Shown: positions 14,023 to 43,464 of the stretch, piece by piece
Position numbering within the stretch: position 1 is the first letter of the stretch
How the letters are laid out: each line of letters opens with the position of its first letter
Virus record (IMG/VR): IMGVR_UViG_3300021961_005457
Span: 1 to 43,464 of that record
Source: a virus
Length of the DNA: 43,464 nucleotides
Reading direction: 5' to 3' (one strand)
Notes under the pieces: generated by a model
The model's database searches: none
What the model saw: only the letters and a program-made list of their open reading frames with translations
What the model was told of the DNA's origin: nothing
Position numbers and translations under genes: made by a program

Positions 14023-14030
14023 TATTTATC
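14023..14030 (-). promoter_or_regulatory. Late promoter-like octamer GATAAATA upstream of the 108-aa gene
   Basis: GATAAATA on the minus strand overlaps the stop of giant fibre 1 and lies 20 bases before the ATG at 14002, almost the same distance as the exact TATAAATA before the 110-aa gene. An AAGAGG ribosome binding site (14014-14009) sits between. The geometry fits a T4-like late promoter of the NATAAATA form. Confidence 0.5.
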
Positions 14031-24500: not shown

Positions 24501-24752
24501 GACAACACCCAAAAACATGTTGTTGGCAAGAGTTAAGTTACTTTGAAAGAGTACATTGTTTGCCACAGACAGTGGTGTACCTGATGCCGTAATAGACACA
24601 TTTGCTGTGTTGGAAATGAGTAATTGACCTTGGTCTTTCTCGTATGTGAAGAATCCCAAATCATTCAAATCTGTTGCTGATTTGTTGGTTTGGATTCTCC
24701 ACTGGTCAATGGTATCGCTTCTGGCAATTGTTGGGATAGTAGACGTTGGCAT
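21522..24752 (-). CDS. Tail fibre with C-terminal S74 intramolecular chaperone/peptidase
   Basis: A 1076-residue fibre. Residues 1-75 (PTIARSDTIDQWRIQTNKSA, then DLGFFTYEKDQGQLLIS) are a conserved attachment domain of T4-like aquatic phage fibres. Residues about 80-390 are repetitive TSNVATINxGT-type strands, probably a beta-helix. Residues about 400-470 and 700-790 carry two 'RWNE/RWDE' beta modules like those of the giant fibres, separated by an Ala/Asn-rich helical stretch. The C-terminal 93 residues are a peptidase S74 domain: FSDRKLKDN with Ser984 as the expected cleavage nucleophile and Lys989 at the +5 position, then HTGVIAQDVEVVLPEAV. Such domains trimerise the fibre and then cleave themselves off. 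The final helix (IKELDDKLEEIKKQL) is coiled-coil. AAAGG precedes the ATG. Confidence 0.88.
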   Translation of the reverse strand: MPTSTIPTIARSDTIDQWRIQTNKSATDLNDLGFFTYEKDQGQLLISNTANVSITASGTPLSVANNVLFQSNLTLANNMFLGVVGAATGNLISGGTIRITGPGTALNVANNVLVGADVQVVNNVYVQNITANGNVSVTRNITSAGILRLSGLANVMYVNTGTATINRVLSTYMYADDVFTANLTAAVATIGVLNYLPYANIGTIDNNLLNSNDINSNTLDTTYGNVTVLVARTSANLVTLTSNVSTINNGTVQNLVSTNSTITNGTVINGNVVTLSSNVATINTLTALVGTTITGNVVTLTSNVATVNTGTIQTLLSSNANVTNASITYLSSSNTITANTLISNNIEVSTANAAWINVSNNLSVKTGGAIRVYANTVEDEVLTVDGKTTLQTTYIRGNIAVEGTWTALGNVEYEVSEFTLNANTPTNADATIRNNRVVGTDALIRWDETDDQWKVSKGNTYSSLYGILDASFLNATVTSNSTANVATPSAVKAAYDTAVVAGGYGNSAYTLANTANQTATSASSYANGAFTAANTANTFLIITSAIVGNVANLALNLATTANANSNLAFFHANAAFTLANTVSAGSVDNFARENGNSANTLATTANNNARSAGSYANSAFEVANTALNNASIAFNLAETANTNAALANVAAASANTLAGSAWTLANVANTTATLATTLGNGALLKTSASSQTIASDLTINGDVTFPNAKRLISYNAFISGDIRANGNFVVVNNGLLDTSGPTQPGGIRVKRGTSTDAYIRWNESVSPPRWQYSDNAGNFTDFNAASLLASKATNIAGGSGFRIPYQSAADTTTFIDAPSVGDRFLQWTGSAFAWSSVTPNLTNLSASNLTSGTVPSARMSGSYAIDISGKASTAGNADTVSNGVYTTQSYSNPSFISSLAYSKLTGAPTIPTNTNQLTNGAGFVTGTPWTSYGYLTSAVTSVSTGNGLSGSITSTGTLTMSGSYTGTFSVTGSITSSGNVTAFSDRKLKDNLEKIGDALAKVRQITGYTYNRKDLSDKAKRHTGVIAQDVEVVLPEAVEEHNGIKGVAYGNMMGLVFEAIKELDDKLEEIKKQLNK

Positions 24753-24996: not shown

Positions 24997-27900
24997 TCAA
25001 CCTGCTGGCAAAGCAATGATTCGTAGGTCTTTGATAGACGGAACGACTGATGGATCTGATGAAGTCATAACAATCTTAACTGAGAATGTTTTAAAGGTAT
25101 CATACGTTACACCATTATCAGATGTATACGTTGCAGCATCGGCAGTTAATGATGGTCTAAATTCAAATTCAAAGAAGTCCGAATCAGTTACTGAAATACT
25201 TGTTGTTGGATTGAAACATTCCATCTTCTGATATCTTCTATCTTTGAATGAGGTAGAATCTGAAGACGACAATAACTTATAGAATACGGTAACATCAGTG
25301 CCTGATGGTCTATTAACGGCCAAATAAACACGCAAATCACCAGCATCAAATCCATCAGCAAGAACAACTGGTTTAGTGATATACTTGGCCAAACAAGGAC
25401 CAGCAGTACTATCAAATTCAGAATTCAAAACAATACTTGCATTCGAAGTTACGTTTGCGGTAGTGTTTGCATTTGGATAAGAAATTGTGAAATCATCCAA
25501 ATAGCCAAAACCTGTTGAAGCAACATTCATAGAAAGAACATTACCTTTTACACCATCACAAGACATATAAACTGTTGCACCTTCACCTGTTGATGAATTG
25601 ATAACAATCGTATTTGAGTTGGCATAACCTGCACCAGGACTGATGATATTAAAATCTTCAGCATTGATTTCAGCGTTATCAATAAAGTTTTCCCAAACGT
25701 TTAGGTGTAAACTTTCTAAAGATACGATTGGAGAAATAGTATCTGTGTTGGTTGAGATTTGGTATTTAACAGTAAAGTCACCCTTATCGACCAACTCTTT
25801 TCTTCTGGAACCAAGTGTGTACTTACTATCCAAACCACAATCATATTTCATTTGTGGAATCAAACTTCTATATTGAGTTTCTTTGGCACCATTAATTGGT
25901 GTTGAAACAAAATAGTAGTTTGATGCAACAGGGAAATCTGAAGCCGGTTTGATTGATGTTTCCAACAATCTAAATTTGTCTATGTAATATGTTTTTGGTG
26001 GCTTCTCTGAATCTAAACTAAAGTATGCAGATGTACCAGTAACAAACTTACAACGATTCAACGTAAACATCAAATCTTCGTTTAAGAATGGAACATATTC
26101 CATTGAATTTTGTGATTTGTATAAAGTACCAACATATGGGTTTTGTGAAACAGTTTTATTAGCTGTTGTCAATGCACCTTTTTCAGCAACCCACATTAAG
26201 TAGTCTGGACTGCTAGACAAAATAACTGCCGCATATAAACCTGGTTTTAAGAATACAGGTGATGGGAATGTAAACTTCGTTGCAGTAGATGCAACATCAA
26301 CACTTGGTGTAGAAGAAACATTAACTTCACTTGGATATTTTGTCGATACAGATTCTTGATACCAGAAATCTGCTGATGGAGCACCATTAACTGTTGGTCG
26401 AATTTGAACAGTAACAGGTAATGTATCATCTTTGGCACTAAAGAATAGATCGATACTTTCAGCAAACAAACCTAATGGATACTTTTCAGGATCAACATAG
26501 AATGTTTGTGCTAATGGATCATCCACAGCAGTAGAAATTACATTTGTAACTACTGCTTGATCCACAACTGCAGCCGGTGTTGGATTTTCAGCCGCTGGCG
26601 GTGGATTGTAACCAGTACTTGTTAGAACTGAAGATGTTGTTTGACTTGAAAGAACTTTAGATGTAGTTTCACCAGTAAACTTAGATGAAGTAGCAAAGTT
26701 ATAAACTGTGTCAATTAAATTTGTTTTCTTAAGAGCAACACCAGAAGAAACGTAAGATGTTTCTGTAAATGAAATTGCATCTTTGTCGTAAGTATTATTG
26801 AAAGATTCGGTAATACGCAATACACGTTCACCGGTTCTAAATGTTGCTTTAGGTGGATACAAAACACCACCAACATCACCAGTAGATGTAGATTTATTTG
26901 AACCTAGAGAATATGTCCAATTTAAACTTCTCTGTGTTGCTGATGTTGTTTGTTGTATAGTAGCAATTTTTGTTGTTGTATCGTAGGCAATAATGTTGAA
27001 TGTTGCACCAGATACAGTCGCACCTGAAGTTGCATTTTCTAATATACCTGCCTTTTCATCACTATCTGTTCCAATAGACCTTACCAAATATAGAACATTT
27101 GTATTTGCTGAAGCTGCAATGTTAAATGATGGAGCATCAGAAGCCAAAGTAATTGTTGTTGCACCAACAGAACGTGTTACTCCAGATTTGTGTTCTTCCA
27201 ATGTCTCAATATAACGTAGTGAGTCGGAGTTAACACCTCTCAAATATTTACCTTGCAATGATTGACCAGATTCGTTGACCAATGACACGTTTCTTCCAAC
27301 ATCAGCATTAACAATTCTAACTGTCTTATAAGTTCCTGAACGAGCTTTATAATTTGTTATGAATGTTGCAGCTTCACCTTGATTATTCGCAATAACTGCT
27401 ATTTCACCAGGCTGAAAACCATTTGTAGAAAGAGATATAGTTGTTGTAATTCTATTAGGAACAACAACATAATTGTTTACGGAAACACCATCAAAGAAAG
27501 CAAAATAATTACTATCTGGTCGTAAAGAGTTACAAACAAAAGAAATTGCTTTTGGCTTTAAGTATGGATTAATTGAAACATCGGTAACATATGTACCAAC
27601 GTCAACAGTACTTGCAGTTGGCTTTGCAATTTGTTGTAATGTGTATTGAGCACCACTCTTAATGTAAACACTATTTGTGGTAGTTTGTAAATTACCAAAA
27701 TCTGCGCCTTTTAAATCGTAACCAATACCGCCACTAGTGACTTTAGTGTCGGATGTTTCAGAAGCACTTTCGAACCACTTAGAGTCAATAACTTTTGCAA
27801 AAGGATTATTTGCATCGTTTACCCAACCAGGGTTCGCATCAGACAAATATCTAAATGCATCATTAATAAAGTTGAATGGGTTTTCGATACCTTGTAAAGA

Positions 27901-30900
27901 ATTTAACGTGACTTTAGCTGTTGAATCTGTATCAGCTTCTGCTGTATACTCTGGGAACAACTTCATGTTACCTCTAAATGCACCATACAATGCACTTGCT
28001 ACACCTACAGTTTTCGTTGCAGAATCTTGTTGTGCAAATGGTAAAGATGTATAGTCCATCATCAATGAACGTTTATCACCAGAACCAATGGCACGATAAG
28101 AACCAGAAGATGCGGCTTCATTCCAAAGCATCTTCACTGTACGCATCAAAGCAGCAGGTTTCAATAAACCATTATCAACCATACAACGATTATCAAAACC
28201 AGCATCACCATATGTTGCTTGTACACCATTATCACCAAAATTATCAACTAGAATACCATACTTGGATCTTTCGAGTCCAGTTGCATCTAAGATTTTAGAA
28301 TCATTGGCATTCTTTTCTAATGTATTCAAAGACACATAATATTCAAGGCCTCGAATTCTAGTGTCAAACGAACTAATATCCTTCATCGTGTAACGTTTAT
28401 TATTCTTAAAGTCGGCACGAATGTCTTTTACACTTTCCGTGTATGCTGGAACATACATTGTGTATAGGTGTAAGTCCTCCGGACCAACTGGTGGTGCAAC
28501 TGGAATTACAGCAGGTTTACCACTGATAATGGAAATTTCTTGTGATGGTTTAACAACAACCTGGTCAATCCTTGGTAAATAATATTCAAATGACAATTCT
28601 GCTAATGAATCTGGATCAGGATTGACTGCACCGGTTAATGTTGTGCTTGCAACATCTCTTGTTGGTCTAAAATCCAATGCAGCACGAGCTGAAACAATTC
28701 TACCATCTTCACGATTGAAGAATTTTGGTAGTTGATTGTATGTCAAATTAGTTGAACCAGTATATGAATCAACAGTAAACAAACCATTATTTTGTGGAGA
28801 TGGTGCGCTACCGTGATTGAAATATTTGTACTGAATCATCAATGATGAACCAGTTGGTGAACTGTAACCACGCTTCAATCTAATAGAAGCATGGTCGTAG
28901 TGTGTTTTTCTGTGGCCATTGTCCAACTCATAATGGTCTGTTACATCGTGTGTTGGATCAGTCAACATTGACATTGTAATGTTGCCAGTATTTGTTTTGG
29001 AATCAATGATCTTAACAATTTCATAAACGTCTGCAACTTGCAAACTAACCGGAACACCAGGAGTTTTCAATTGATTCAATGGAAAAGAACCACCAACAGA
29101 TGAAAAATCATAGTGTGTCACACCAATAGTTGGGAAAACATAACCGCCAGTAATAGCGGTAACCGTACCTGTGTTACCAACATTTAAAGCATCAACGTCA
29201 TCTAAAATGTATGGAACTCTTGTGTGAAAATAATCGTTCGCAGGGAACAGTGATTTTGTTCTAACTGCACCATTGGTACCATCTTCAGCTTGATTTACTT
29301 TAGTTTTGATAATGAAATCACAACGTACAGCAGGAGTATTCAAATCAACTTGAATTGTTGTACTATCAACAGCAACAACAGTAAATAAGTTATTAGCCAA
29401 AGATAAGATAGTGTTTCCAGCAATACCTGATGCAGCATTTGTTGCAGAAGTATCAGAACGAACTAAACAAACAATATTTTCTAAAATTGCGGTGTCACCT
29501 AAAGTACCACCAGAACCAGCAAATGCGAATGTATCTGTACCAACTGTGGAGATTGTAATTACACCACCACCATCAGACAATTTGTTGGAGTAAACTTTAT
29601 TAGCAAAGAAATCAAAATTTGTAATTGTTCCTTCTTTTAAAGCTTCAAAAGGAATTGGGAATAACAAACTGTCTTTGTTTTTCTCGGTAATATATGCATC
29701 ACCTGTAGAATCTCTAGATTCAGCATTAACATCGGCACCCCAAAGCAATGCACCACCAGAACGAATCACCAATGATTCAGCACCACTGAATCCAGATTCA
29801 ATTGTGAAAGCATTTGCAGCTGGAGTAAATGATAAACTTGAATCTAATCTAATGAAGTTTGAACCAGAAGATTCGATTCGAATTGGAGCCAAATCTCTAC
29901 CAGCACCATCAGTGATGTGGAAATACATTCCTTGATATGAGTTGGCTTGCAATGTTGTACACCATGCAGTAGGCAATATAACATTTGCTGAGGTGTGGCC
30001 ACTTGAAGCAAGATTACCAATGATTGGTGTGGTGTTTGCTTCAAATAGATTCAATCTATGAGTGTGTGATGTACCTAATGTTGTAGACGTTGCACCATGA
30101 TACTTCATGTTGTTGACACGAACAGTACCAATTTTTGTAGAATTGTAATATACTGTACCACTCTTATCGATATATTGTTTTGGTACACAATGAATATCTA
30201 AAGTTGGAAATGTAGTAATGTCTAAGTTTGTTGTACCTTGAACATTCTCAACAACAACATAACTAGAATAATTTGTAGGAATATCATAGTCTGATACGTT
30301 CGCTGTAGCACGACCACGATAAACACCTAACTTAGTAGGTGCAATAGTTTGAAATTCATGGCCTGCAACATAAGCTTTACCTGGATCCAAAATTACACTG
30401 AAATAATTTGGGTCAGCATAATTATTGTTTGCACGATTTGCATATTCTTCTTCCAAAGTCAAAACAAAAGGATCAACTGTGTAATTACCAGACTCATCAT
30501 AAGTTCTTCTGGCCAAAGTTTTTTCTATTTCACTGTATATTGGGTATTGAACTTCTTTAGTTTTAACACCATCAACAACACGAACAACTTCAAAGAACGC
30601 AGATTCATCAGCAGAATCTAATGTGCGTTTTGATAATCGTGTGATTAGTTTTGAACGTGTTGCACCTGGAGCTTGATAGTTAAATGAGCCTTGTGCAGGA
30701 TCCAACAACGAAGAATCATCAATTTCATCATAGATTTCTTGGTCAAATTCAATACCAATTTTATATGATGGCAATACATTAATTGTAGATGTATCATAAC
30801 CTAAACGATAAAATGTTTCAAGTACCAAAAACTCAGGCAATACTTTTACGAATTGACCTTTGAAGTAATATATACCTTCTTGGATACTGGCAACATATGA

Positions 30901-31368
30901 ACGACCAACAGCATCTAGTGCTTTAGCTTGAGCAAAGATGTTTTGACCATAAATTTTTATTTCATCGGCTTCAACAAACTTCTCACCACTCAAATACTTA
31001 ACGACCAAGATAGGATTTGTTGTGGTATTGTCAATTGCAATAACTTTTGCACGTACAATTTTAGTTGTGCTATAACCAATAATAGTTTTATTCAACCAGT
31101 TTTCCAACACAACATCTTCACCATTATATTGTGTATCTAATTGAATATAGTATGCTCGGTCATCAAGTGAGATTTTACCACCAGTGATTGGACTACCACT
31201 CTTAAAGATATGATTACCAAATTTTTCAATCTGGTTTGCGAGGATTGTTTGAGCTTGAGTTAATTCTCTGGCTTGAACTGCATATCCAGGTCGGAATAAG
31301 ACACGCATGAAGTTCTTGTCTTCATCGAAGTCATCGAAATATGGGTCGTAGTTGAAAAGAGTTGTCAT
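24997..31368 (-). CDS. Giant DUF4815-type baseplate or tail structural protein
   Basis: A 2123-residue virion protein. The N-terminus (NYDPYFDDFDEDKNFMRVLF, then RPGYAVQARELTQAQTILANQIEKFGNHIFKSGSPITGG) is the hallmark of the DUF4815 family of T4-like aquatic phages. The long middle is mixed beta structure with conserved-looking blocks (YYLPRIDQVVVKP near residue 930; LAQTFYVDPEKYPLG near residue 1625). Residues about 1900-1965 carry a glycine-rich GxGY module like those in gp6 and gp8. The C-terminal segment (VTVFYKLLSSSD, then KDRRYQKM) is typical of the family. It follows gp8 where T4 has gp9-gp11, so it probably decorates the baseplate periphery and mounts fibres (inference). A GAGGA Shine-Dalgarno precedes the ATG. 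The stop nearly touches the next start. Confidence 0.8.
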   Translation of the reverse strand: MTTLFNYDPYFDDFDEDKNFMRVLFRPGYAVQARELTQAQTILANQIEKFGNHIFKSGSPITGGKISLDDRAYYIQLDTQYNGEDVVLENWLNKTIIGYSTTKIVRAKVIAIDNTTTNPILVVKYLSGEKFVEADEIKIYGQNIFAQAKALDAVGRSYVASIQEGIYYFKGQFVKVLPEFLVLETFYRLGYDTSTINVLPSYKIGIEFDQEIYDEIDDSSLLDPAQGSFNYQAPGATRSKLITRLSKRTLDSADESAFFEVVRVVDGVKTKEVQYPIYSEIEKTLARRTYDESGNYTVDPFVLTLEEEYANRANNNYADPNYFSVILDPGKAYVAGHEFQTIAPTKLGVYRGRATANVSDYDIPTNYSSYVVVENVQGTTNLDITTFPTLDIHCVPKQYIDKSGTVYYNSTKIGTVRVNNMKYHGATSTTLGTSHTHRLNLFEANTTPIIGNLASSGHTSANVILPTAWCTTLQANSYQGMYFHITDGAGRDLAPIRIESSGSNFIRLDSSLSFTPAANAFTIESGFSGAESLVIRSGGALLWGADVNAESRDSTGDAYITEKNKDSLLFPIPFEALKEGTITNFDFFANKVYSNKLSDGGGVITISTVGTDTFAFAGSGGTLGDTAILENIVCLVRSDTSATNAASGIAGNTILSLANNLFTVVAVDSTTIQVDLNTPAVRCDFIIKTKVNQAEDGTNGAVRTKSLFPANDYFHTRVPYILDDVDALNVGNTGTVTAITGGYVFPTIGVTHYDFSSVGGSFPLNQLKTPGVPVSLQVADVYEIVKIIDSKTNTGNITMSMLTDPTHDVTDHYELDNGHRKTHYDHASIRLKRGYSSPTGSSLMIQYKYFNHGSAPSPQNNGLFTVDSYTGSTNLTYNQLPKFFNREDGRIVSARAALDFRPTRDVASTTLTGAVNPDPDSLAELSFEYYLPRIDQVVVKPSQEISIISGKPAVIPVAPPVGPEDLHLYTMYVPAYTESVKDIRADFKNNKRYTMKDISSFDTRIRGLEYYVSLNTLEKNANDSKILDATGLERSKYGILVDNFGDNGVQATYGDAGFDNRCMVDNGLLKPAALMRTVKMLWNEAASSGSYRAIGSGDKRSLMMDYTSLPFAQQDSATKTVGVASALYGAFRGNMKLFPEYTAEADTDSTAKVTLNSLQGIENPFNFINDAFRYLSDANPGWVNDANNPFAKVIDSKWFESASETSDTKVTSGGIGYDLKGADFGNLQTTTNSVYIKSGAQYTLQQIAKPTASTVDVGTYVTDVSINPYLKPKAISFVCNSLRPDSNYFAFFDGVSVNNYVVVPNRITTTISLSTNGFQPGEIAVIANNQGEAATFITNYKARSGTYKTVRIVNADVGRNVSLVNESGQSLQGKYLRGVNSDSLRYIETLEEHKSGVTRSVGATTITLASDAPSFNIAASANTNVLYLVRSIGTDSDEKAGILENATSGATVSGATFNIIAYDTTTKIATIQQTTSATQRSLNWTYSLGSNKSTSTGDVGGVLYPPKATFRTGERVLRITESFNNTYDKDAISFTETSYVSSGVALKKTNLIDTVYNFATSSKFTGETTSKVLSSQTTSSVLTSTGYNPPPAAENPTPAAVVDQAVVTNVISTAVDDPLAQTFYVDPEKYPLGLFAESIDLFFSAKDDTLPVTVQIRPTVNGAPSADFWYQESVSTKYPSEVNVSSTPSVDVASTATKFTFPSPVFLKPGLYAAVILSSSPDYLMWVAEKGALTTANKTVSQNPYVGTLYKSQNSMEYVPFLNEDLMFTLNRCKFVTGTSAYFSLDSEKPPKTYYIDKFRLLETSIKPASDFPVASNYYFVSTPINGAKETQYRSLIPQMKYDCGLDSKYTLGSRRKELVDKGDFTVKYQISTNTDTISPIVSLESLHLNVWENFIDNAEINAEDFNIISPGAGYANSNTIVINSSTGEGATVYMSCDGVKGNVLSMNVASTGFGYLDDFTISYPNANTTANVTSNASIVLNSEFDSTAGPCLAKYITKPVVLADGFDAGDLRVYLAVNRPSGTDVTVFYKLLSSSDSTSFKDRRYQKMECFNPTTSISVTDSDFFEFEFRPSLTADAATYTSDNGVTYDTFKTFSVKIVMTSSDPSVVPSIKDLRIIALPAG

Positions 31369-35700: not shown

Positions 35701-35766
35701 GTGTTCTTCCCTAATAAATTCGGGAAGTTGACTTTCTACTATACTTGATAGAATTACGTCTGACAT
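32716..35766 (-). CDS. Large baseplate wedge protein in gp7 position
   Basis: A 1016-residue protein between gp6 and gp8, the place and size of T4 gp7 (1032 aa), so a wedge role is likely. The N-terminus (ESQLPEFIREEHQLFATFIKRYYEWLE, residues about 10-36, then FYRSKGTPESVKFLFRVLYNEE near residue 112) is a conserved helical block known from baseplate components of aquatic and other myophages. The middle is almost entirely glycine-rich GxGY beta repeats (about residues 210-300, 365-390 and 480-700). The C-terminal third contains YHNFSYVINTENDYVKFKKALNDVVHPVGTK, a block also conserved in these proteins. Sequence similarity to T4 gp7 itself is not evident to me, so 'gp7' rests on position and length. 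The ATG overlaps the gp6 stop (TAATG). Confidence 0.65.
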   Translation of the reverse strand: MSDVILSSIVESQLPEFIREEHQLFATFIKRYYEWLEKNGNIVLESKKLDDAKDVDLADNVYIEQIRKEIAPFFPKELLLDKAKFLKIVGEFYRSKGTPESVKFLFRVLYNEEITISYPKEQVLRTSDGKWVLPLALRVTDNDVNILEIEKTKIIGQTSKASAIVEKAIKSVDRQLGIEYVELYISNITKLFTTGETIRTHVTGNTQIEVTATLIGSLSEIKIDPINRGLYYNGYDPDLGYDGDPVTIIGGLNPQSANPVGALATVGTVLKGSVKNIITRNGGFGFRYDSVAPNSTIIDFKGGFAGGLLGSEAKAFISLLDENYTRNVNVSDVTIETVYSQSINQWDNTSNTKTIGQVTTYQDLGLYSIAYVDILSSGGGYRQKPEVDISSMYLEDVDDLLVITSCTAVQGSRILRDSSQDLTDTFEVGERVKLFLKNRFEEIRTVTAVTSETITLDVPFENNIDNLMVYKLLRKNLDALGSLGRIEILNGGQNYNVGEYLIFSSTGGRGLGANAQIIEVHTANNGVKSVEFNERSIGALTGVTISTGGTGYGVGNTFTATGGTGTSAVLTVLAVNGSGNVTSVNVSNSGKYITSPTTTLNPFTSNTGSGSGFRANLTISYAPEYIRGGEGYDAEHLPTITVNTAFGTGATLIAKEILGDGEELELSTTRIGSISTLRVVSYGYDYISAPQISLRNADLVVSNVTQGQIFVANTKIYQGASNTNTTWTAFVDRYVTSNNHMRIYNYRGSLNVASQIISDDNTVSANVVNVSYYGDGKAKATAGFENGLIRYPGIYLNEDGQLSADKKLQDSKKYHNFSYVINTENDYVKFKKALNDVVHPVGTKTFVTRVSANPKNAARPNSTIKIISVQTLSNTFNVSNGSNNMVATGASPNLASVISVGDYVTLRNVERRISGTVNVGVSSNVVVGTSTNFINDVQANDVIKLSTGNTSTVTEVINANTIYTYTNFGISNNNATISILFNDTKQVTFVNANTILVSTKFTTNSTYVTTSHQKLE

Positions 35767-37841
35767 TATTTTATTGGTACTATGTTGATAACAATTGTAG
35801 TAGAATCATTAACATCAAACGTTAATAATTTATTTTTCTCTGAGTGAATAACTGATTTAGATGGACGAATGTGTACAGACAACTCATCAAAATCGTTGGC
35901 TACAGATAGAGGATTAAAATTGTTAATGTAAATTTTACCTTTGGTGTAATCAATCTGACCCATCACACCATTGTTGTTTTGGTAATTAAGAATTGATTTA
36001 ACACTCTGATTCGATGTTTCATCTGGTCTGAAGTAAGCAATGCGTAATTGGCCATATCTATTCTCAAGCACAGCAGATCCAGTGGCTAATGTTCCGCCAC
36101 CTCCAGTAATTACAATTGCAGCAGTCGTATAACCAACACCTGGATTTGTAACTGTAATATATGACAAACGACCATTGATAATTGTGGCTTCTGCCTTGGC
36201 GCCTTGGCCGTCACCTAGAATCGCAATCGTTGGTGTTGATGAGTAATTAATACCTGGATTCGTAACAGTAATTGATTCAACACCAGTAAATGATGATGGA
36301 ACTTCTTCAATAAACGCTGACCTTGTAATTCCGTTTTCATCCAATACTGTGAAGTTTGGACTTGTATAGAAGTTATCGTTTGTTGTACCACGTTGCAGTT
36401 CAACACCAAAATCTAAAATATAATTTGATGTTGTTATAAGGTCTGGTCTAAATTTCTTGGCAATAAAAACTTCCAACTCGTTTGAAATGACAGAAATGTC
36501 ACAAGAGTCAATTGCCGTTTTTAAAGCAGAAGACCTAAAGTATGCATTAAAGGAGTTTAGATTAGTATTACAAAAATCTAAAATCGATGTTCTAACCTTA
36601 GTTCTTAATGTATTCAAATCCAAAATTGTTTTAGTTGGGTCATAATATACTGTAGAAATCATTTTTAAGTAATTATAGTCAACGTCAACAATTTGTGGTG
36701 TAACAGTCATCACACTAATTGGTTTTAGAACATTCTGTAAGAAGAAATCTTTTTCGGTATCTGTAATCTCAAAGCCATCTTTAGGTTTGGCCGAGATAAA
36801 GACTTTACCATAAACAGGTGGATCATTTTCTTCTCCACCCCAAACATTAACTGCTTCAAACTGTGGATATTTTTGTTGAATTAATTTGATATAATCGTTT
36901 TTAGTGACAGCACGATTTTGCGAAATGTATTGTAGTGGTGCAGCAAATCTAATCTCATCAACAGTCTCACGTGTTCGACCACCAGCGGCAACAGTAACAG
37001 TATTGATTGTAAATCCTGTTAAATAATTAATTGATGCGGAACCAGTAAAGTTTGCAGCCTTGTTTGCATCTTCACCATTACTTATTAGATAACTGATTGT
37101 TAAAACCGCACCATCTGGTAATTTTTTACCAACAATGTTATCACCAAAATAGATTTGGTACTTGCCGCTTTGTCCTTCTTGTAGGAAATACGTTTTAGAA
37201 TCCGAAGTCAATGAAATTGAATCATCTACAGGATTATAAACGACAGTTTCCGTGTTTGAAGAACTTTGTTGAACTGTAACACGCAATGTTGTTGTATCAA
37301 CTTTAGCATCAGGTATTTCATAAATTTGTTTAGGATTACTAATTTCCGAATGATTGTATGAATATGAAAGTAATTTACCTTCAAAGATTTCAATATCGTT
37401 ATAGACAAAGTTTGTTCCAGTTTTTGAAACGGTATAGTCTTGCAAAGTAATGAAAGTATAAATTTTACCTTCAACCGGACCACTAATAAATGTATATCCA
37501 CGTGGTATAGTCAAGTAATCTTCTGCAGAAGTACTGCCATTAATCGATACATCAATAACAGCCTTAGATGCTCTGTTTGAACGTGGTGTATAACCAAGTT
37601 TTTTGGCATGAGACACAACTGAGTTTCTTAACAATGCGGTATCTAAGAAACCCTCATTTGCAACCATATTGAGATAGTATGCATTATAGTGCGTGTTATA
37701 TGCCAAAATGTCCAAAAGAACACTTAAGCCAGCACCCTCAAAATCATAATCGGAAAACTCCGTTTGTTGTTTGAGGAATGTTTTTAAATTGGTCTTGATT
37801 GTATCAAAATCAAGTTCGGTTACTCTTAAACGATTTGCCAT
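35766..37841 (-). CDS. 6: Baseplate wedge subunit gp6
   Basis: Core wedge protein that forms the ring around the hub in T4 (660 aa there, 691 here). The N-terminus (LKTFLKQQTEFSDYDFEG, then LLDILAYNTHYNAYYLNMVANE, residues 16-65) is the diagnostic gp6/gpJ-type signature. It is followed by LRNSVVSHAKKLGYTPRSNRAS. Residues about 290-340 (AAPLQYISQNRAVTKNDYI, then KYPQFEAVNVWGGEENDPP) are also typical. Residues about 520-600 hold two glycine-rich repeats (VTNPGINYSSTP, VTNPGVGYTTAA) that I regard as an inserted beta module shared with the next genes. The start abuts the gp25 stop, and the stop overlaps the next gene's ATG by one base. Confidence 0.92.
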   Translation of the reverse strand: MANRLRVTELDFDTIKTNLKTFLKQQTEFSDYDFEGAGLSVLLDILAYNTHYNAYYLNMVANEGFLDTALLRNSVVSHAKKLGYTPRSNRASKAVIDVSINGSTSAEDYLTIPRGYTFISGPVEGKIYTFITLQDYTVSKTGTNFVYNDIEIFEGKLLSYSYNHSEISNPKQIYEIPDAKVDTTTLRVTVQQSSSNTETVVYNPVDDSISLTSDSKTYFLQEGQSGKYQIYFGDNIVGKKLPDGAVLTISYLISNGEDANKAANFTGSASINYLTGFTINTVTVAAGGRTRETVDEIRFAAPLQYISQNRAVTKNDYIKLIQQKYPQFEAVNVWGGEENDPPVYGKVFISAKPKDGFEITDTEKDFFLQNVLKPISVMTVTPQIVDVDYNYLKMISTVYYDPTKTILDLNTLRTKVRTSILDFCNTNLNSFNAYFRSSALKTAIDSCDISVISNELEVFIAKKFRPDLITTSNYILDFGVELQRGTTNDNFYTSPNFTVLDENGITRSAFIEEVPSSFTGVESITVTNPGINYSSTPTIAILGDGQGAKAEATIINGRLSYITVTNPGVGYTTAAIVITGGGGTLATGSAVLENRYGQLRIAYFRPDETSNQSVKSILNYQNNNGVMGQIDYTKGKIYINNFNPLSVANDFDELSVHIRPSKSVIHSEKNKLLTFDVNDSTTIVINIVPIK

Positions 37842-38246
37842 TTATCGTACTCGTTCTAGGAAAAAATTAATTGTTACGGGGTCTGTCATATTCATAATGT
37901 AAAATTCCATACGAACACTGAAACCATTATTGTCAACATCAGGTAAGATATCTAAAGTTTTAATCTGTGCTCTTGGTTCGTAATTCTCAACAACCTGTCT
38001 AATCTCTCTTTCCATCGATATTGCGGTAATCTTATCGAGGTTTTCAAAAAGCAAGCGCCTTACGTTAGAACCTAAATCAGGTTGAAACGGTCTTTCGTAA
38101 TGATTGGTCATCATCAAATTCTTAATTGAATTGATAACTGCCATTTCGTCCTTGTGTTTATTGATATCTTTCCTTACTGGATGTATCAAAAAGTTAAGGT
38201 CCAAATCTTTATATTGTCTGGATGAAGATGAAATTACTGTGGCCAT
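37842..38246 (-). CDS. 25: Baseplate wedge subunit gp25
   Basis: Wedge protein that links the baseplate to the sheath in T4-like phages and is conserved across contractile injection systems. The 134 residues match the T4 length (132). Visible family features are DLDLNFLIHPVRKDI at the N-terminus, NSIKNLMMTNHYERPFQPDLGS in the middle (residues about 39-60), the conserved EPRAQI near residue 90, and a C-terminal beta-hairpin rich in hydrophobics (FSVRMEFYIMN). The fold is lysozyme-like by family name, but the family is structural. The stop codon is directly followed by the gp6 ATG. No Shine-Dalgarno is visible before this start; an ATAAATA motif lies there instead. Confidence 0.93.
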   Translation of the reverse strand: MATVISSSSRQYKDLDLNFLIHPVRKDINKHKDEMAVINSIKNLMMTNHYERPFQPDLGSNVRRLLFENLDKITAISMEREIRQVVENYEPRAQIKTLDILPDVDNNGFSVRMEFYIMNMTDPVTINFFLERVR

Positions 38247-38258: not shown

Positions 38259-38299
38259 TATGTTACCCAACGTTATTTTTGTGTTTGTCATAATTATTC

Positions 38300-40540
38300 T
38301 TAACCAGTGCTTTTTAAATTAGAAGGTACTGCTAGGTAAAGATTTGCCGCACCCAACAGGTCATATGGATCGGTTACGCCGCCAGTAGTTGTAGGAATCT
38401 GATTTACTCCAGCGTTCTCTGTGATATAAGTTAATGCAGCTGCTTGATTCATTGTGGGAGTTATTTCTAATGCACATGCCAATACACCACACACCTGTGG
38501 TGACGCCATGCTAGTGCCACTAAGTTTGGCAACATAATAGTTGGAATTTCTCGCATCAACCACAGGAGTAGGTAAAATTCCTTGATCTGTAATGATGTTT
38601 GTAAGCCAAGCACTGGTAATAATTGTGCCAGGAGCAAACAAATTCACCCGAGGCCCACGATTGCTATAATCAAGTTTTCTGTCAGGACCTGGACTATTGA
38701 TTGACGATGATATCGCTCCTACACATATGACATTTGACGCAGAACCTGGTGATGAACCACGATTATAGTATATGGGATTGCCTGAATTGGATCCTGTTGC
38801 TGTCACAGTATTGTTGTAGTCAACATCGCTAGTATTTGTTGTTATTTTATAATATTGATTTCCAGCGGAAGCAACCATGATAATACCCGCATCAATGCAG
38901 GCCTGTATGTCAGCATCCATTGTGTCATTCCTCAATGGAATCCTAGCAATGTTGGAGGAGTCAACGTTAATGCCATAAGATGCCAATTGATTAATAGTAA
39001 ATGGACCTGCAACAGTTGATCCTCGATATGTCACGGATGTGATATTAGTATAAGTTATTGTGTATCGTGAATCCCAACTGTTATTTACAATTGTTGGTGT
39101 CATATTACCTGCCGCACGTTTTTGATTGTGCCAATACAAAATGTATTTGTACAAGTATGTATATTGAACACCGCCTGTCACATACTGCGGACTTATGTTG
39201 TAAATATTAGCATTACGAGCCCATCCTTGTGTATTACCTGCTACAGTACCTGCCACATGAACAGCATGTCTACTGTCATCAGAAGAAGAACTTGCATTGC
39301 TTGTTATAGGAGGACTGTATGTCTGTCCATACCTGGTATCACCAGGTATGTTCAAAGAATACCAATTAAAATATTTTACTCTGCTACCGCCCGTGCCGTC
39401 TGGATTCACAGCAAATTCAGGATGATTCGAATCTATAACACCATCCACAATAACTACATCAACTCCTCTTCCGCCGGCTTTTAGTGAAACTGTACCAGAC
39501 CTGTTACCTGTGGCACCGGTGCCACTTGATCCCCAAGTAATATCAGGATTAGATCCATACCAAGACCTATACAATCCCCAATTGCGATCCATGACTCCAC
39601 CCACAGAGTTGGATTGAATTGTGGTTAAAGTATTTGCCTTGCTCCAAAAATCTGAATATTGAGAAACTAGAGGATCCGTAACCGATTCATTGGCCAAGCT
39701 ATTTTTGTATTTGTCTGTACCAATCAGATTGTTTATTAAGTATTTTTGTGTATTACCGACTCTACCTAGTGAGTTGAGTTTGTTATAATCATCCAAAATA
39801 TTCAATGAATTTCTGTAAAAGTTCCAATCATGCAATCTTCTGGTAGACAATAACGTGTTGGCAGATTCAACATTTGCAGTTAAAGATGTTATAAGTGATA
39901 ATGATAGGTTTGATAAAGTCGATGTTACTGGCGTTTCACCACCTGTTGTTTCTGTGCGAATGCTGTTTTTCACCAAAACTATGTTACTAATAATGTTGTT
40001 GGCATTGGATGTAATCTCATCTGAAATAAACAAACTAGTAAAATTACCCAACAAAGGAACTGTATTGGCAACACCATCGGTTGCACTAGTCAACATTAAA
40101 ATCTGTTCACCTGCACTAACTGCCTTATTGTAATCTGGAAAATGAGTGACTACAATAGAACCTTCTGAAATATTAGCTTTTGATTCCGTAACACCAGAGA
40201 TGTTTGATGTGTGACTCAAATAGTTACGAATCTCAATTATCAAATTCGATACACTAGTTTTTAATTCAGTTCCAGAACCGTTATCAAATGTATCGATTGT
40301 CTGTAAAACACTGTTTAACTCAGCAACGTTATCACTCAATCTTGAGGTAACAGTAATCATTGGATTTTTAAAATAATTTGTTTTGACAATACCGCCTGTG
40401 GCCAAATCATTCTTTTGCCAATCTTCAAGTTTAACTGGTGCGGCGTTTAGATAACTCTTTGTACTGTCTGAAAGATTAATTGAATCTCCAAACTTGCTTG
40501 TATCAAAACTAAAATTTAATCTTTCATATACGCTTGCCAT
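38300..40540 (-). CDS. Virion-associated subtilisin-like serine protease (S8) fused to a long N-terminal structural region
   Basis: A 746-residue protein with two parts. Residues 1 to about 340 are mostly helical and unrecognised (WQKNDLATGGIVKTNYFKNP near residue 40). Residues about 355-735 form a complete subtilase domain: Asp366 in VIVDGVIDSNHPEF, His425 in RHAVHVAGTVAG, oxyanion Asn561 in VASAGNQ and nucleophile Ser677 in LSGTSMASPQ. The usual HGTH around the catalytic His is HAVH here, but all catalytic residues are present. No signal peptide is evident. The start has GAGG four bases upstream and lies just after the spike gene, before gp25. The N-terminal region probably anchors the protein in the baseplate or spike (inference). 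Possible roles are cleavage of host surface proteins or processing of virion proteins. Confidence 0.82.
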   Translation of the reverse strand: MASVYERLNFSFDTSKFGDSINLSDSTKSYLNAAPVKLEDWQKNDLATGGIVKTNYFKNPMITVTSRLSDNVAELNSVLQTIDTFDNGSGTELKTSVSNLIIEIRNYLSHTSNISGVTESKANISEGSIVVTHFPDYNKAVSAGEQILMLTSATDGVANTVPLLGNFTSLFISDEITSNANNIISNIVLVKNSIRTETTGGETPVTSTLSNLSLSLITSLTANVESANTLLSTRRLHDWNFYRNSLNILDDYNKLNSLGRVGNTQKYLINNLIGTDKYKNSLANESVTDPLVSQYSDFWSKANTLTTIQSNSVGGVMDRNWGLYRSWYGSNPDITWGSSGTGATGNRSGTVSLKAGGRGVDVVIVDGVIDSNHPEFAVNPDGTGGSRVKYFNWYSLNIPGDTRYGQTYSPPITSNASSSSDDSRHAVHVAGTVAGNTQGWARNANIYNISPQYVTGGVQYTYLYKYILYWHNQKRAAGNMTPTIVNNSWDSRYTITYTNITSVTYRGSTVAGPFTINQLASYGINVDSSNIARIPLRNDTMDADIQACIDAGIIMVASAGNQYYKITTNTSDVDYNNTVTATGSNSGNPIYYNRGSSPGSASNVICVGAISSSINSPGPDRKLDYSNRGPRVNLFAPGTIITSAWLTNIITDQGILPTPVVDARNSNYYVAKLSGTSMASPQVCGVLACALEITPTMNQAAALTYITENAGVNQIPTTTGGVTDPYDLLGAANLYLAVPSNLKSTG

Positions 40541-40549
40541 AATACCTCA

Positions 40550-41383
40550 TTACATTAGTGCAAAGGGTGTACCGGTTGGTCCCTTTGATGTTGGATGTAT
40601 GTGTGAATTAAACACCATTCGCATCATTTCCATTGTGCCACGAACATCTTTAACAATAACACCATTAATTAGCGGTGAATTAACTGAGACACCAGCATTA
40701 ACAGCGGTTGTCACATTAACTTGTAACGGCACAGCAACATCAAGTCCAACCGCAACACCACCAAGTAATGTTACGAATCCTAAAGGACCAGCAAACACAC
40801 CTGTTCCAGCATTAACTTTATTTTCTGAAGTAATCATATTCGCCGCCAAACTACCAGATACAACCAAATCTGCATCCAAATACAAATGGTCGCCAGCTGC
40901 TAATTTCATTCGACCCGTGATTGGGTTTCCACAACCAACAGTCATATCACCATTAGATAATATTGAAGATGTGTCAGCAACAGTTTGTGACAATTTACCA
41001 CCAACTTCTAGGTAATAGTCACCATCAATTTTTTCATATTTGTCACCCTTAACGTGTACAACTGAATTGCCTTCTATAGTAATATTACATACACCAGAAA
41101 TAATAACATTGTTATCTTTGGCAACAATCTCATAATTATCACCGACAATCTTGTTGATTCTCGTTCCATCAGATTGAATTTCAAAGAAAGTACCATCACC
41201 ATCAGTTTGTGCGCCGCCGTGTTGGAGGCGTATCCTCTCACGTCCCGGAGTATCATCCAATTCAAAACTGTGTCCAGATTCGGTTATGGTTGCGTGGTTG
41301 TATGGATACTTCGGCAACGTTTCATCGTTTGCCTGCGACTCGGGTTCTGTCCACGAATAATCATCAGATGGTTTTGTTGCCAT
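40550..41383 (-). CDS. gp5 C-terminal-type membrane-piercing spike (beta-helix with HxH tip)
   Basis: Likely central tail spike (277 aa). Residues about 35-75 (SGHSFELDDTPGRERIRLQH, then TFFEIQSDGT) match the conserved start of the gp5/VgrG beta-prism. Short valine/glycine-alternating strands follow (VIISGVCNITIEGNSVVHV, then YYLEVGGK), as expected for an intertwined trimeric beta-helix. The C-terminus carries FNSHIHPTSKGPTGTP, with H261 and H263 forming an HxH pair. In P2 gpV and related spikes an HxH near the tip binds iron; that this one does is inference. It lies one base downstream of the OB-fold gene's stop, so the T4 gp5 chain is split over two genes here. No strong Shine-Dalgarno is visible; translation may be coupled. 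Confidence 0.75.
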   Translation of the reverse strand: MATKPSDDYSWTEPESQANDETLPKYPYNHATITESGHSFELDDTPGRERIRLQHGGAQTDGDGTFFEIQSDGTRINKIVGDNYEIVAKDNNVIISGVCNITIEGNSVVHVKGDKYEKIDGDYYLEVGGKLSQTVADTSSILSNGDMTVGCGNPITGRMKLAAGDHLYLDADLVVSGSLAANMITSENKVNAGTGVFAGPLGFVTLLGGVAVGLDVAVPLQVNVTTAVNAGVSVNSPLINGVIVKDVRGTMEMMRMVFNSHIHPTSKGPTGTPFALM

Positions 41384-41384
41384 G

Positions 41385-42449
41385 TTAATTCGTTGTAAAT
41401 TTAGTTATATCAGTTGTCGTTGATGTTGGGTTCACACTGGATAGGTATGTATTCAACGTTTCTCCAGCAGCTGCAATATCAGTTGAACTACCTGGAGTAG
41501 TCAATGCTTGGATTACAGCAACGGGTGCTGCAACAACTTTTAAACCAGCGGTGTAAATTTCTCCTGCTGATTTTTGAATATCATTGAATACTGCAATGGC
41601 CTCAGTAAAATCTGTTTTGCCAGATGAAGCAAACAATACCGATAATCCAGAAGTTAGTGATGCTACCAATTCTGATAAACATTGTTTCAATAAGGCATAT
41701 AGTTTAGAAGGCAGCCCATTAATATAGTCGATCATTGCTCGAACTTTTTTAGCAAAATCAACAACAACTGTTGCAAGGTCTGCTATTTCTGAAATTGATT
41801 TTGCTATGTTACTCAATTCACGAGCTAATTTTTTTGCTTGTTCAATCATATAACCAGTAATACCACTACTTAATCCTAAAGCTTTCAATATAGCTTTAAT
41901 GCCTGCTCGAATTCCTTCCATTAATTGTGAAAATTGAATTCTGAGTAGAGCTGCGTTACGTTTCATTAGTCCAGCAATATCACAAACGTGTTTTCTATTT
42001 TGATTTGCTTTATGTATTGTTGTTTGTTGTAATAACTTTACATCTTCCATAACAACAAGTGGCAAAGATGGCACACCAATTTGTTCATACACAATACCTT
42101 TTGCAGGTTTTGGTGCTGTAACAATCATTTCTGGTATTCGTGGGTCATTAAAACCAAGTTCATTATTTTGTTCTTCTAATCTAATTCCATGTATGACTCC
42201 AGTAATAACTGGAAAATCAGGATTACCATGCATAAAATAACCATCAACTGTATCACCCTCTTTTGGCATCATCAAAGATAACATCGAAGACGGCGGACAA
42301 GAAATTGATGCCCAAGGTAAAGCTTCAGTTGGAACTTGCGCTTTACTAATTGGATGTACACCAATAATACGAACCCTACAACGTAATTTTAACGGATCGT
42401 TTCTATCCTCAACAATCCCAACCCAATTGCGATAGTAATCATTACTCAT
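41385..42449 (-). CDS. gp5-like baseplate hub OB-fold protein with helical C-terminal half, no lysozyme domain
   Basis: Equivalent of the N-terminal OB domain of T4 gp5, which seats the spike on the hub. Residues 1-105 from the chosen start (MSNDYYRNWVGIVEDRNDP, then CRVRIIGVHP, then PKEGDTVDGYFMHGNPDFPVITGVIHG) have the usual gp5 N-terminal OB pattern. Residues about 140-310 are predominantly helical and amphipathic (for example GIRAGIKAILKALGLSSG), and the tail is Thr/Ser rich. The frame could open at a TTG at 42476, but the ATG at 42449 overlaps the upstream stop and gives the family-like N-terminus, so I chose it. No lysozyme domain (as in T4 gp5) is present, and the beta-helix is encoded by the next gene. 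The 354 residues are therefore OB fold plus an unrecognised helical domain. Confidence 0.75.
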   Translation of the reverse strand: MSNDYYRNWVGIVEDRNDPLKLRCRVRIIGVHPISKAQVPTEALPWASISCPPSSMLSLMMPKEGDTVDGYFMHGNPDFPVITGVIHGIRLEEQNNELGFNDPRIPEMIVTAPKPAKGIVYEQIGVPSLPLVVMEDVKLLQQTTIHKANQNRKHVCDIAGLMKRNAALLRIQFSQLMEGIRAGIKAILKALGLSSGITGYMIEQAKKLARELSNIAKSISEIADLATVVVDFAKKVRAMIDYINGLPSKLYALLKQCLSELVASLTSGLSVLFASSGKTDFTEAIAVFNDIQKSAGEIYTAGLKVVAAPVAVIQALTTPGSSTDIAAAGETLNTYLSSVNPTSTTTDITKFTTN

Positions 42450-43464
42450 TATAATTTGCTGCTCTTTCTTGGTCAACAGTACTTGTAAAAACTGTATTAT
42501 TTTTATTTCTATAATTAGATGAATCTGTTACAGCTTCAATTACGACCTCATGCATGTTTGGTCTTATTATGTGTCGTGTGGCCACAATTAAATATTTGCC
42601 GTATAATGAAGAATCAAATGGATTTTCACCATCCACCAAAACACTTCTTTTTGGTACATCTAAATCTATGCAAAAACCGGAAGACAATTTAAAATTTCCA
42701 GGTAAAACTAATTTAACACGTTTTGAGAATAGGTTTTGAAAAATAGCTTCACGTTGAAATTTATAATTTTCTGTGTCTTCATCCAATGACACAGACGTTG
42801 GATTGTTTTCTTTGATGAACGCACTATTTTTTCTATTACCAAAAAATGGATAAGTCACAATTCTGGAATCATACATCTGTGTTTGAAATAAACCACCTCT
42901 ATTTTTTATTAAAGAAACGTTTGGATTTCTATTTGCATGTTCACCACTATCATACATCTCTTTAAAAGTATGTTGTTGCTCTTGTATCGTTTTTGTTAAA
43001 GGATCAAACGCTATAAGTTTGCCGGCATAAACGCCAGATTTGGTGTTACGAACAAAATCATTTTGTGTAACAACTTCAAAACTTCTAGCACCAGTAAATT
43101 CTTCACCTAGATTATCCGAAATATTTTTTGCACTAAAATTTACTCTAGTTAAACTCGGGAAAGAAAATAGTGTACTCAAATTGGTAAAATTAAAACCCAT
43201 TCTGTTTTCGAAAAATATGAATCCAGGTGATTGATTTTCGTCTACAGCTCTAGTTGCAAGCCATTGTAAAGCAACTAAAGGTTCTAAAGATGGAACAAGA
43301 ATATTCCGAACACCAAAAGAAGATGAATATATTCCAAATTTTTTGATACCCAAATAATCACTCATTATTTTAACGGCAGCATCAGAATAGGACAAATTAT
43401 AATAGTGTTGAACTTTTTGTTGTAATGAAAAAATGTACTCATCAGAAACAAAATGCAAAACATA
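42442..43464 (-). CDS. Baseplate hub protein, gp27-like (5' end outside window)
   Basis: Probable central hub protein of the baseplate, forming the ring that carries the gp5 spike. The frame is open to the right window edge. The first in-frame initiator-like codon is a TTG at 43458, so the true start almost certainly lies outside. About 340 residues are visible. Hub-type features are a segment reading PLVALQWLATRA followed by FIFFENRMGFNF, and a C-terminal beta-rich part (GKYLIVATRHII, then EVVIEAVTDS) like the tube domains of gp27/gpD/VgrG proteins. The gene directly precedes a gp5 OB-fold gene, with the stop overlapping the next start (AATGAGTAATG), matching the gp27-gp5 partnership of T4. 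The assignment rests on pattern and position; another hub or tail-tube-like protein is possible. Confidence 0.6.
   Translation of the reverse strand, partial: YVLHFVSDEYIFSLQQKVQHYYNLSYSDAAVKIMSDYLGIKKFGIYSSSFGVRNILVPSLEPLVALQWLATRAVDENQSPGFIFFENRMGFNFTNLSTLFSFPSLTRVNFSAKNISDNLGEEFTGARSFEVVTQNDFVRNTKSGVYAGKLIAFDPLTKTIQEQQHTFKEMYDSGEHANRNPNVSLIKNRGGLFQTQMYDSRIVTYPFFGNRKNSAFIKENNPTSVSLDEDTENYKFQREAIFQNLFSKRVKLVLPGNFKLSSGFCIDLDVPKRSVLVDGENPFDSSLYGKYLIVATRHIIRPNMHEVVIEAVTDSSNYRNKNNTVFTSTVDQERAANYNE

Follow-up and report, generated by a model that had tools for sequence, protein, structure and literature searches.

What is a subtilisin-like protease doing in the middle of a phage baseplate operon? 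This question is raised by a gene of the window (the whole 43,464-nt stretch of IMG/VR record IMGVR_UViG_3300021961_005457 that was analysed), the product of which joins an N-terminal module, referred to here as the anchor, to a C-terminal S8 subtilase (Table 1). In order of transcription, the operon codes for a phrog_350 hub, a gp5-like OB protein, a gp5-type needle, the fused protein, gp25, gp6, a wedge protein and gp8. The first-pass annotation had placed the protease between the spike and gp25, and this is borne out, with the needle gene ending 9 nt upstream and gp25 starting 53 nt downstream of the fused gene. Note that gp5 itself is split in the window (40550-42476), with the OB protein having a TMP-like helical tail and the needle being a separate gene. 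Elsewhere, three giant ORFs (4981-13671, 14026-20934 and 24997-31368) code for proteins of 2,896, 2,302 and 2,123 aa that have hardly any Pfam matches; the last of these contains DUF4815, and an S74 chaperone ends the protein encoded at 21522-24752.

Table 1. Coordinates in the window of the fused gene, its domains and catalytic codons, and the genes that flank it.
Feature	Coordinates	Strand	Basis or remark
Fused gene, baseplate anchor and subtilase	38300..40540	-	746 aa, ATG start
Anchor module, residues 1-283	39692..40540	-	Homologue ends; AF2 model
Linker, residues 284 to ~313	39602..39691	-	AF2 pLDDT <50 over most of 264-350
Mature-type S8 subtilase domain, residues ~314-746, without propeptide	38303..39601	-	Profiles and structure alignment
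Catalytic Asp366 codon	39443..39445	-	44/44 alignment rows
Catalytic His425 codon (HAVH)	39266..39268	-	44/44 alignment rows
Oxyanion Asn561 codon	38858..38860	-	44/44 alignment rows
Catalytic Ser677 codon (GTSMASP)	38510..38512	-	44/44 alignment rows; scan pattern favours motif
Stretch missing from protease-free alleles L018, L019	38290..39699	-	blastn
Scar, non-coding leftover of stand-alone anchor 3' end	38263..38289	-	26/27 nt match
Needle (gp5 C-terminal trimer part)	40550..41383	-	PF22178 E 1.1e-4 (below cut-off); phrog_430 E 6.8e-39
gp5-like OB protein, C-terminal half helical	41385..42476	-	phrog_430 E 5.7e-28; no lysozyme match
Hub/tail protein (phrog_350)	42442..43458	-	E 1.9e-41
gp25	37842..38246	-	PF04965 E 7.6e-12
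gp6	35766..37841	-	phrog_219 E 1.6e-161

By homology the window protein is an S8 subtilase of PHROG 9158. Residues 357-710 match Peptidase_S8 (PF00082) at E 4.4e-22 (79.2 bits against a cut-off of 21.8), phrog_9158 is matched at E 1.1e-55, and proteinase K-like PDB chains are matched in a sequence search. Structure alignment to keratinase 5wsl gave a Z of 34.0 and an rmsd of 2.9 over 275 aligned residues, and a search of a viral structure library returned known phage S8 proteins on top, followed by a few helical matches whose E values were 0.01 or worse. From about residue 350 onward, most of the AF2 model has pLDDT values above 80, although these drop near 420, 615 and 655. Structure alignment with VIA-align, which spanned the protease part alone (model residues 317-745 of the window protein and 86-525 of the ordinary form described below), puts the start of the protease fold at about residues 314-317, with an NWGL motif at 320. 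Asp366, His425, Asn561 and Ser677, which the first-pass annotation had listed as a full catalytic set, are all present at exactly these positions and are conserved in 44 of 44 protease rows of our alignment, a count in which the Ser is partly built in because its motif was one of the two scan patterns that supplied most rows, which does not apply to Asp, His and Asn. Homologues that had lost the triad, named by the first-pass annotation as a finding that would speak against its reading, were looked for and none occurs among these 44 rows. The replacement of HGTH by HAVH is real but unimportant, as positions 2 and 3 of this motif vary across the family (HGMH, HGAH, HGCH, HGQH, HAAH). A dN/dS of 0.19-0.22 between the window protease and its closest relatives, L015-L017, indicates that the protease is under purifying selection. 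G+C content is 0.41 in the protease versus 0.34 in the anchor of the window, and 0.43 in the L016 protease versus 0.36 for its locus.

A whole-protein scan of 2.9 million viral contigs revealed three kinds of loci, namely fused, protease-only and anchor-only. Specifically, the same fusion is found in five further contigs at 99-100% identity, with a sixth contig containing the fusion's end only; three contigs match residues 284-745 only, or most of them; and the remaining 21 match residues 1-283 only, or part of them. This indicates that the first 340 residues, previously described as structural, do include a structural module, but that the module ends at residue 283 and is followed by a linker from 284 to about 313 and by the protease fold from about 314-317. 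An anchor profile scan then gave 91 relatives, and among the best 80 of these, 73 stop within 10 residues of the module end, five are fused to a protease and two run off their contig, with gp25 located downstream of the anchor wherever the contig extends far enough. The suggestion that the N-terminal module be sought without the protease in related phages was thus answered positively by 73 of the best 80 of 91 homologues, and the predominance of stand-alone copies with gp25 next to them argues that the anchor is an ordinary gene of the baseplate operon to which the protease is an addition. That most anchors stand alone would also be expected if the fusion were an artefact of assembly or reading frame, but the same fusion, junction and scar (see below) occur in the five further contigs, which are near-identical and come from different IMG/VR records. 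As these contigs derive from other assemblies, an assembly artefact is ruled out, and we regard an artefact of either type as next to inconceivable.

The anchor is helical in the AF2 model, with low-to-middling confidence that is low at its ends. Profile searches of Pfam, PHROG and PDB assigned it to no family (best matches at E 0.029, 0.38 and 0.81, respectively), and residues 1-340, searched by tblastn against 50,697 phage records, had a single match at E 0.5, which we take as chance. We rejected an identification of the anchor as gp53 by its position, since putative gp53 ORFs are located upstream of the hub. Those recognized by eye are a 176-aa ORF at L016:2251-2781 and a 215-aa ORF at L026:2112-2759. 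From gene order alone, we infer that the anchor resides in the baseplate near the hub and needle, and this placement is the weakest link in our argument.

The history of the fused gene is recorded in near-identical phage contigs. On the gp25 side, L018 is 99.2% identical to the window over 4,092 nt and L019 is 99.7% identical over 1,730 nt (blastn), and along the needle (41126 to 40527) both are 95-100% identical in 150-nt steps. However, their anchor is just 73-87% identical to that of the window in 150-nt steps, and hence a different allele, and they lack the protease (Table 1). The reverse pattern is exhibited by L013, where the fused allele is 98-100% identical to that of the window and the adjoining needle is 69-78% identical. 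These patterns indicate that the fused gene moves as one allele. The needle gene shows an allele switch of its own relative to L013, with window positions 40527-40976 being 69-78% identical beside stretches of 98-100%. Directly behind the protease stop codon, the window contains the last nine codons, including the stop, of an L018-type stand-alone anchor (26 of 27 nt), after which 16 nt shared with the L018 type lead up to gp25. This scar is present and identical in all five fused contigs that were compared, and the remnant of an old anchor end behind the protease indicates that the fusion is the derived state. The protease would appear to be an optional, exchangeable tool that is dispensable for assembly.

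The closest proteases to that of the window are found in L015-L017, where proteases 81-84% identical to the window's are joined to an N-terminal gp5 OB domain instead of the anchor, with similarity to the window protein beginning at residue 284. In L016 and L017, the two that were scanned, the OB domain matches phrog_694, 430 and 1922 at E 1e-23 to 1e-26; Pfam Gp5_OB is matched at E 0.094 in one of them and is unlisted for the other. The OB-protease gene is followed by gp25 and gp6 in L015 and L016, with the L017 contig ending earlier. Within the 30.7-kb L016 contig, itself a fragment, this OB domain is the sole phrog_430 match, and a search of the same fragment with the window needle gave no match. 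In T4 gp5, the lysozyme domain lies between the OB domain and the needle. Given this layout, the subtilase of L015-L017 stands in the place of the lysozyme. Furthermore, gp25 and gp6 of L016 share only 36% and 39% identity with those of the window, whereas the proteases are 83% identical, which indicates transfer between distant phages. A gene for a zeta-toxin-like kinase (PF06414, E 4.8e-6) is present between the hub and the OB-protease at L016:4259-5230, and also in L017.

How these fused proteases differ from ordinary members of the family was evaluated with a protease profile scan of viral contigs, which yielded at least 587 relatives, the best 80 of which were analysed. Among these 80, the 77 that are not fused, with L097 and L125 beginning at a contig edge, have a short N-terminal region in common when read by eye. 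In the AF2 model of an ordinary relative (pLDDT 87), this region has the beta-alpha-beta-beta-alpha-beta order of an I9 propeptide. Pfam Inhibitor_I9 matches 14 of 42 ordinary N-termini at E values of up to 1 (best 2e-4) and 3 of 8 in a smaller set, all three below the cut-off, and a PDB profile search with the region returned no I9 chain. Foldseek aligned the ordinary form with whole proforms (3afg, 3whi, 1r6v) over 514-556 columns, but at an rmsd near 20, and with mature enzymes of the proteinase K group over about 406-434 columns. We conclude with moderate confidence that the N-terminal region of ordinary relatives is an I9-like propeptide. No such propeptide is present in the window protein, which has the 283-aa anchor at its N-terminus and just about 30 residues before the mature fold.

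Ordinary relatives also have a partner. Among loci from the same best 80 of at least 587, 75 have enough upstream sequence, and in 72 of these (the exceptions being L083, L084 and L103) the gene directly upstream of the protease has at its end a conserved domain of 126 residues, termed here the dock; the median distance between the two genes is 1 nt. The reverse test, which has several contigs in common with the first set, found an S8 protease directly downstream of 78 of 80 docks, and in the other two the protease frame overlaps slightly beyond the limit used. Five of eight dock-position proteins that were examined have a T4 gp9/gp10-like N-terminus and others look like collagen-like fibres; the P-SSM2 protein at this position has a different C-terminal type. 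In L060, L104, L108, L117 and L120, the dock-protease module lies between wedge and gp8-like genes. No dock was found in the window ORFs or in eight fused or stand-alone-anchor loci. Dock domains also occur in cyanophages that have no protease-search match, including PSS2 and S-CBS2 (72-108 kb records). At L083:5683-10092 and L084:4959-9374, which lack an upstream dock, the protein containing the protease measures about 1,470 residues and has an extended C-terminal part, and a second protease-domain ORF follows the first at L066:6199-8010 and L103:7770-13307. A phylogeny of 51 proteases unites the window, L013 and L015-L017 in one clade (100/100) that adjoins the dock-bearing L051 and L066 (98/91), with a bootstrap that had not fully settled. 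The simplest history that these sequences suggest would be a single loss of propeptide and dock, followed by the acquisition of two anchors.

Is the protease a component of the virion? Phage S-SCSM1 encodes a 1,411-aa homologue, ORF228 (L008:5233-9468), in which S8 with its triad is combined with lectin-like Laminin_G domains, and which is labelled 'virion protein' in the record. The report on this phage describes 45 virion proteins identified by mass spectrometry (PMC9602691), and the record has 48 CDS labelled in this manner. The structural genes ORF17, 211, 215 and 245 are unlabelled and yet the translational repressor ORF70 is labelled, which argues that the label probably marks detection; detection by mass spectrometry is its most likely meaning. 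For S-CREM1, where 14 virion proteins were found, the passages on those proteins do not mention its peptidase, and T4-GC518 is named as an S8 peptidase with no function given in the passage concerned (PMC3037559). The term 'subtilisin' in PMC9004378 and PMC12796325 was rejected as a precedent, as it refers to the tail sheath in the passages in which it appears. Among the passages that our literature search retrieved, including those of PMC9964418 and PMC10665884, none describes a fusion of a subtilase to gp5 or to another baseplate or hub protein. Overall, the homologues and the gene context make a predicted virion-borne protease at the baseplate well supported. The first-pass annotation had proposed a virion protease from gene position, and this proposal now gains further support from the stand-alone anchors (73 of 80), the OB fusion, the dock (72 of 75) and the S-SCSM1 label, with proteolytic activity being predicted.

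We also analysed whether the window encodes a tail lysozyme. Profile scans detected no lysozyme family in the OB protein, the needle or seven other window proteins, which agrees with the earlier remark that the spike proteins lack a lysozyme domain; note that the contigs are fragments and that a lysozyme or another protease may lie elsewhere. The fused protein has no Pfam or PHROG match to an OB domain and is therefore not classed as gp5. A genome scan did not reveal a host, as the better of the 11 relatives that it returned are just 32-39% identical and lie on contigs of binned or metagenome-assembled genomes. The best gp6 matches are to Methylophilales and Pelagibacter phages at about 42% identity, and these leave the host undecided.

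Taken together, we favor a model in which a virion-borne subtilase is covalently tethered to the center of a T4-like baseplate as an entry tool, to which we assign a probability of about 0.6. As read from sequence, a PHROG 9158 subtilase of aquatic T4-like phages lost its I9-like propeptide and dock partner and was joined to a core, normally stand-alone baseplate-operon protein here, with a sister lineage having it on the gp5 OB hub domain. The anchor would place one protease per anchor copy beside the hub and needle, where the enzyme may be kept idle by burial in the baseplate rather than by propeptide inhibition. Contraction would then bring it to the host envelope, where it may cut surface or periplasmic proteins at the puncture site as a proteolytic equivalent of the tail lysozyme of T4 gp5. 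The virus particle probably carries the protease as a tool for entry, with the entry role and the envelope substrate being what the location of the enzyme would suggest.

The position of the gene inside a structural operon could alternatively mean that the protease serves assembly by processing baseplate or fibre proteins, or by cutting itself off its anchor, and plays no part at the host surface. Head maturation by phage structural proteases is known, and the mostly low-confidence stretch at residues 264-350 of the model could hold a cut site, although cleavage near residue 350, as earlier suggested, is unsupported here. However, near-identical phage contigs without the protease keep the anchor and all of its neighbors, no S8 match was found in any of 14 stand-alone-anchor records searched (which are fragments), and the fibre or wedge proteins that the ordinary module adjoins differ greatly from one another. 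As the protease is missing from near-identical phages, we consider an assembly role quite improbable. A different role at the host would be the clearing of its surface or the unmasking of a receptor before contraction, in which the enzyme trims surface proteins, pili or matrix and does not act at the puncture site. T4 gp9/10 and fibre-like proteins sit at the baseplate rim, ordinary relatives dock on proteins resembling these, and S-SCSM1 ORF228 combines S8 with lectin-like domains, all of which is congruent with surface clearing. The fused forms, on the other hand, use the gp5 OB hub domain and a needle-adjacent protein, which suggests the center of the baseplate, and we view surface clearing as unlikely for them.

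It is also conceivable that the S8 domain is catalytically idle and functions as a structural or binding domain. Subtilisin propeptides serve folding, such that folding and activity are not assured without one, and here the propeptide is lost and activity is a prediction from sequence alone. Conservation of the four catalytic positions in all 44 rows, with the Ser partly ascertained, together with purifying selection, argues against an idle domain, which we judge to be very improbable. Returning to the entry tool, a broader and more tentative proposal is that open-water T4-like phages have an exchangeable proteolytic 'warhead' that replaces or accompanies the tail lysozyme, in which the dock-subtilase module was turned into hub and anchor fusions, enclosure and contraction are the off- and on-switch, respectively, and alleles with and without the warhead are exchanged by recombination as a single gene between near-identical phages. 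We hold this proposal to be possible rather than likely.

Several known systems resemble parts of this arrangement. The closest are the PHROG 9158 'subtilisin-like serine proteases' of Kyanoviridae (S-H38, S-CREM1, S-WAM2, P-SSM2), which are of the same family, have the same catalytic residues and are encoded near baseplate or fibre genes; proteases of this type occur in 38 phage records. An I9-like propeptide is present in these proteases, and those with a dock have it as a separate upstream protein, whereas the window protein has neither and is a covalent baseplate fusion. Similarity to T4 gp5 is seen in L015-L017, where a gp5-type OB domain precedes an enzyme in the slot between hub and gp25, but here this enzyme is a subtilase and not a lysozyme, and the L015-L017 protein yielded no needle match. 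In the window the enzyme is carried by a neighboring anchor protein and not by the OB domain. Proteinase K, aqualysin and keratinase share the fold and triad, but are secreted with a propeptide and signal peptide, unlike the predicted baseplate fusion. Evolved VgrG and PAAR effectors of type VI secretion, where an enzyme is fused to the spike or tip of a contractile injection device, would be alike in design, but the window is from a phage and not a secretion system. Thus, an S8 subtilase of PHROG 9158 is known, and what appears to be new is its covalent fusion to a baseplate or hub protein without a propeptide and dock.

Most tail-tip enzymes known from contractile phages hydrolyse carbohydrates or peptidoglycan. 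If our reading is true, a subtilase present on the gp5 hub in one lineage and on a needle-adjacent baseplate protein in another would constitute a proteolytic entry tool. Otherwise near-identical phages that differ at this one gene in having or lacking the protease provide a natural experiment on its role. Finally, the pairing of dock and protease gives a testable function to PHROG 9158 and to PHROG 9627/15343, which PHROGs lists as function-unknown.
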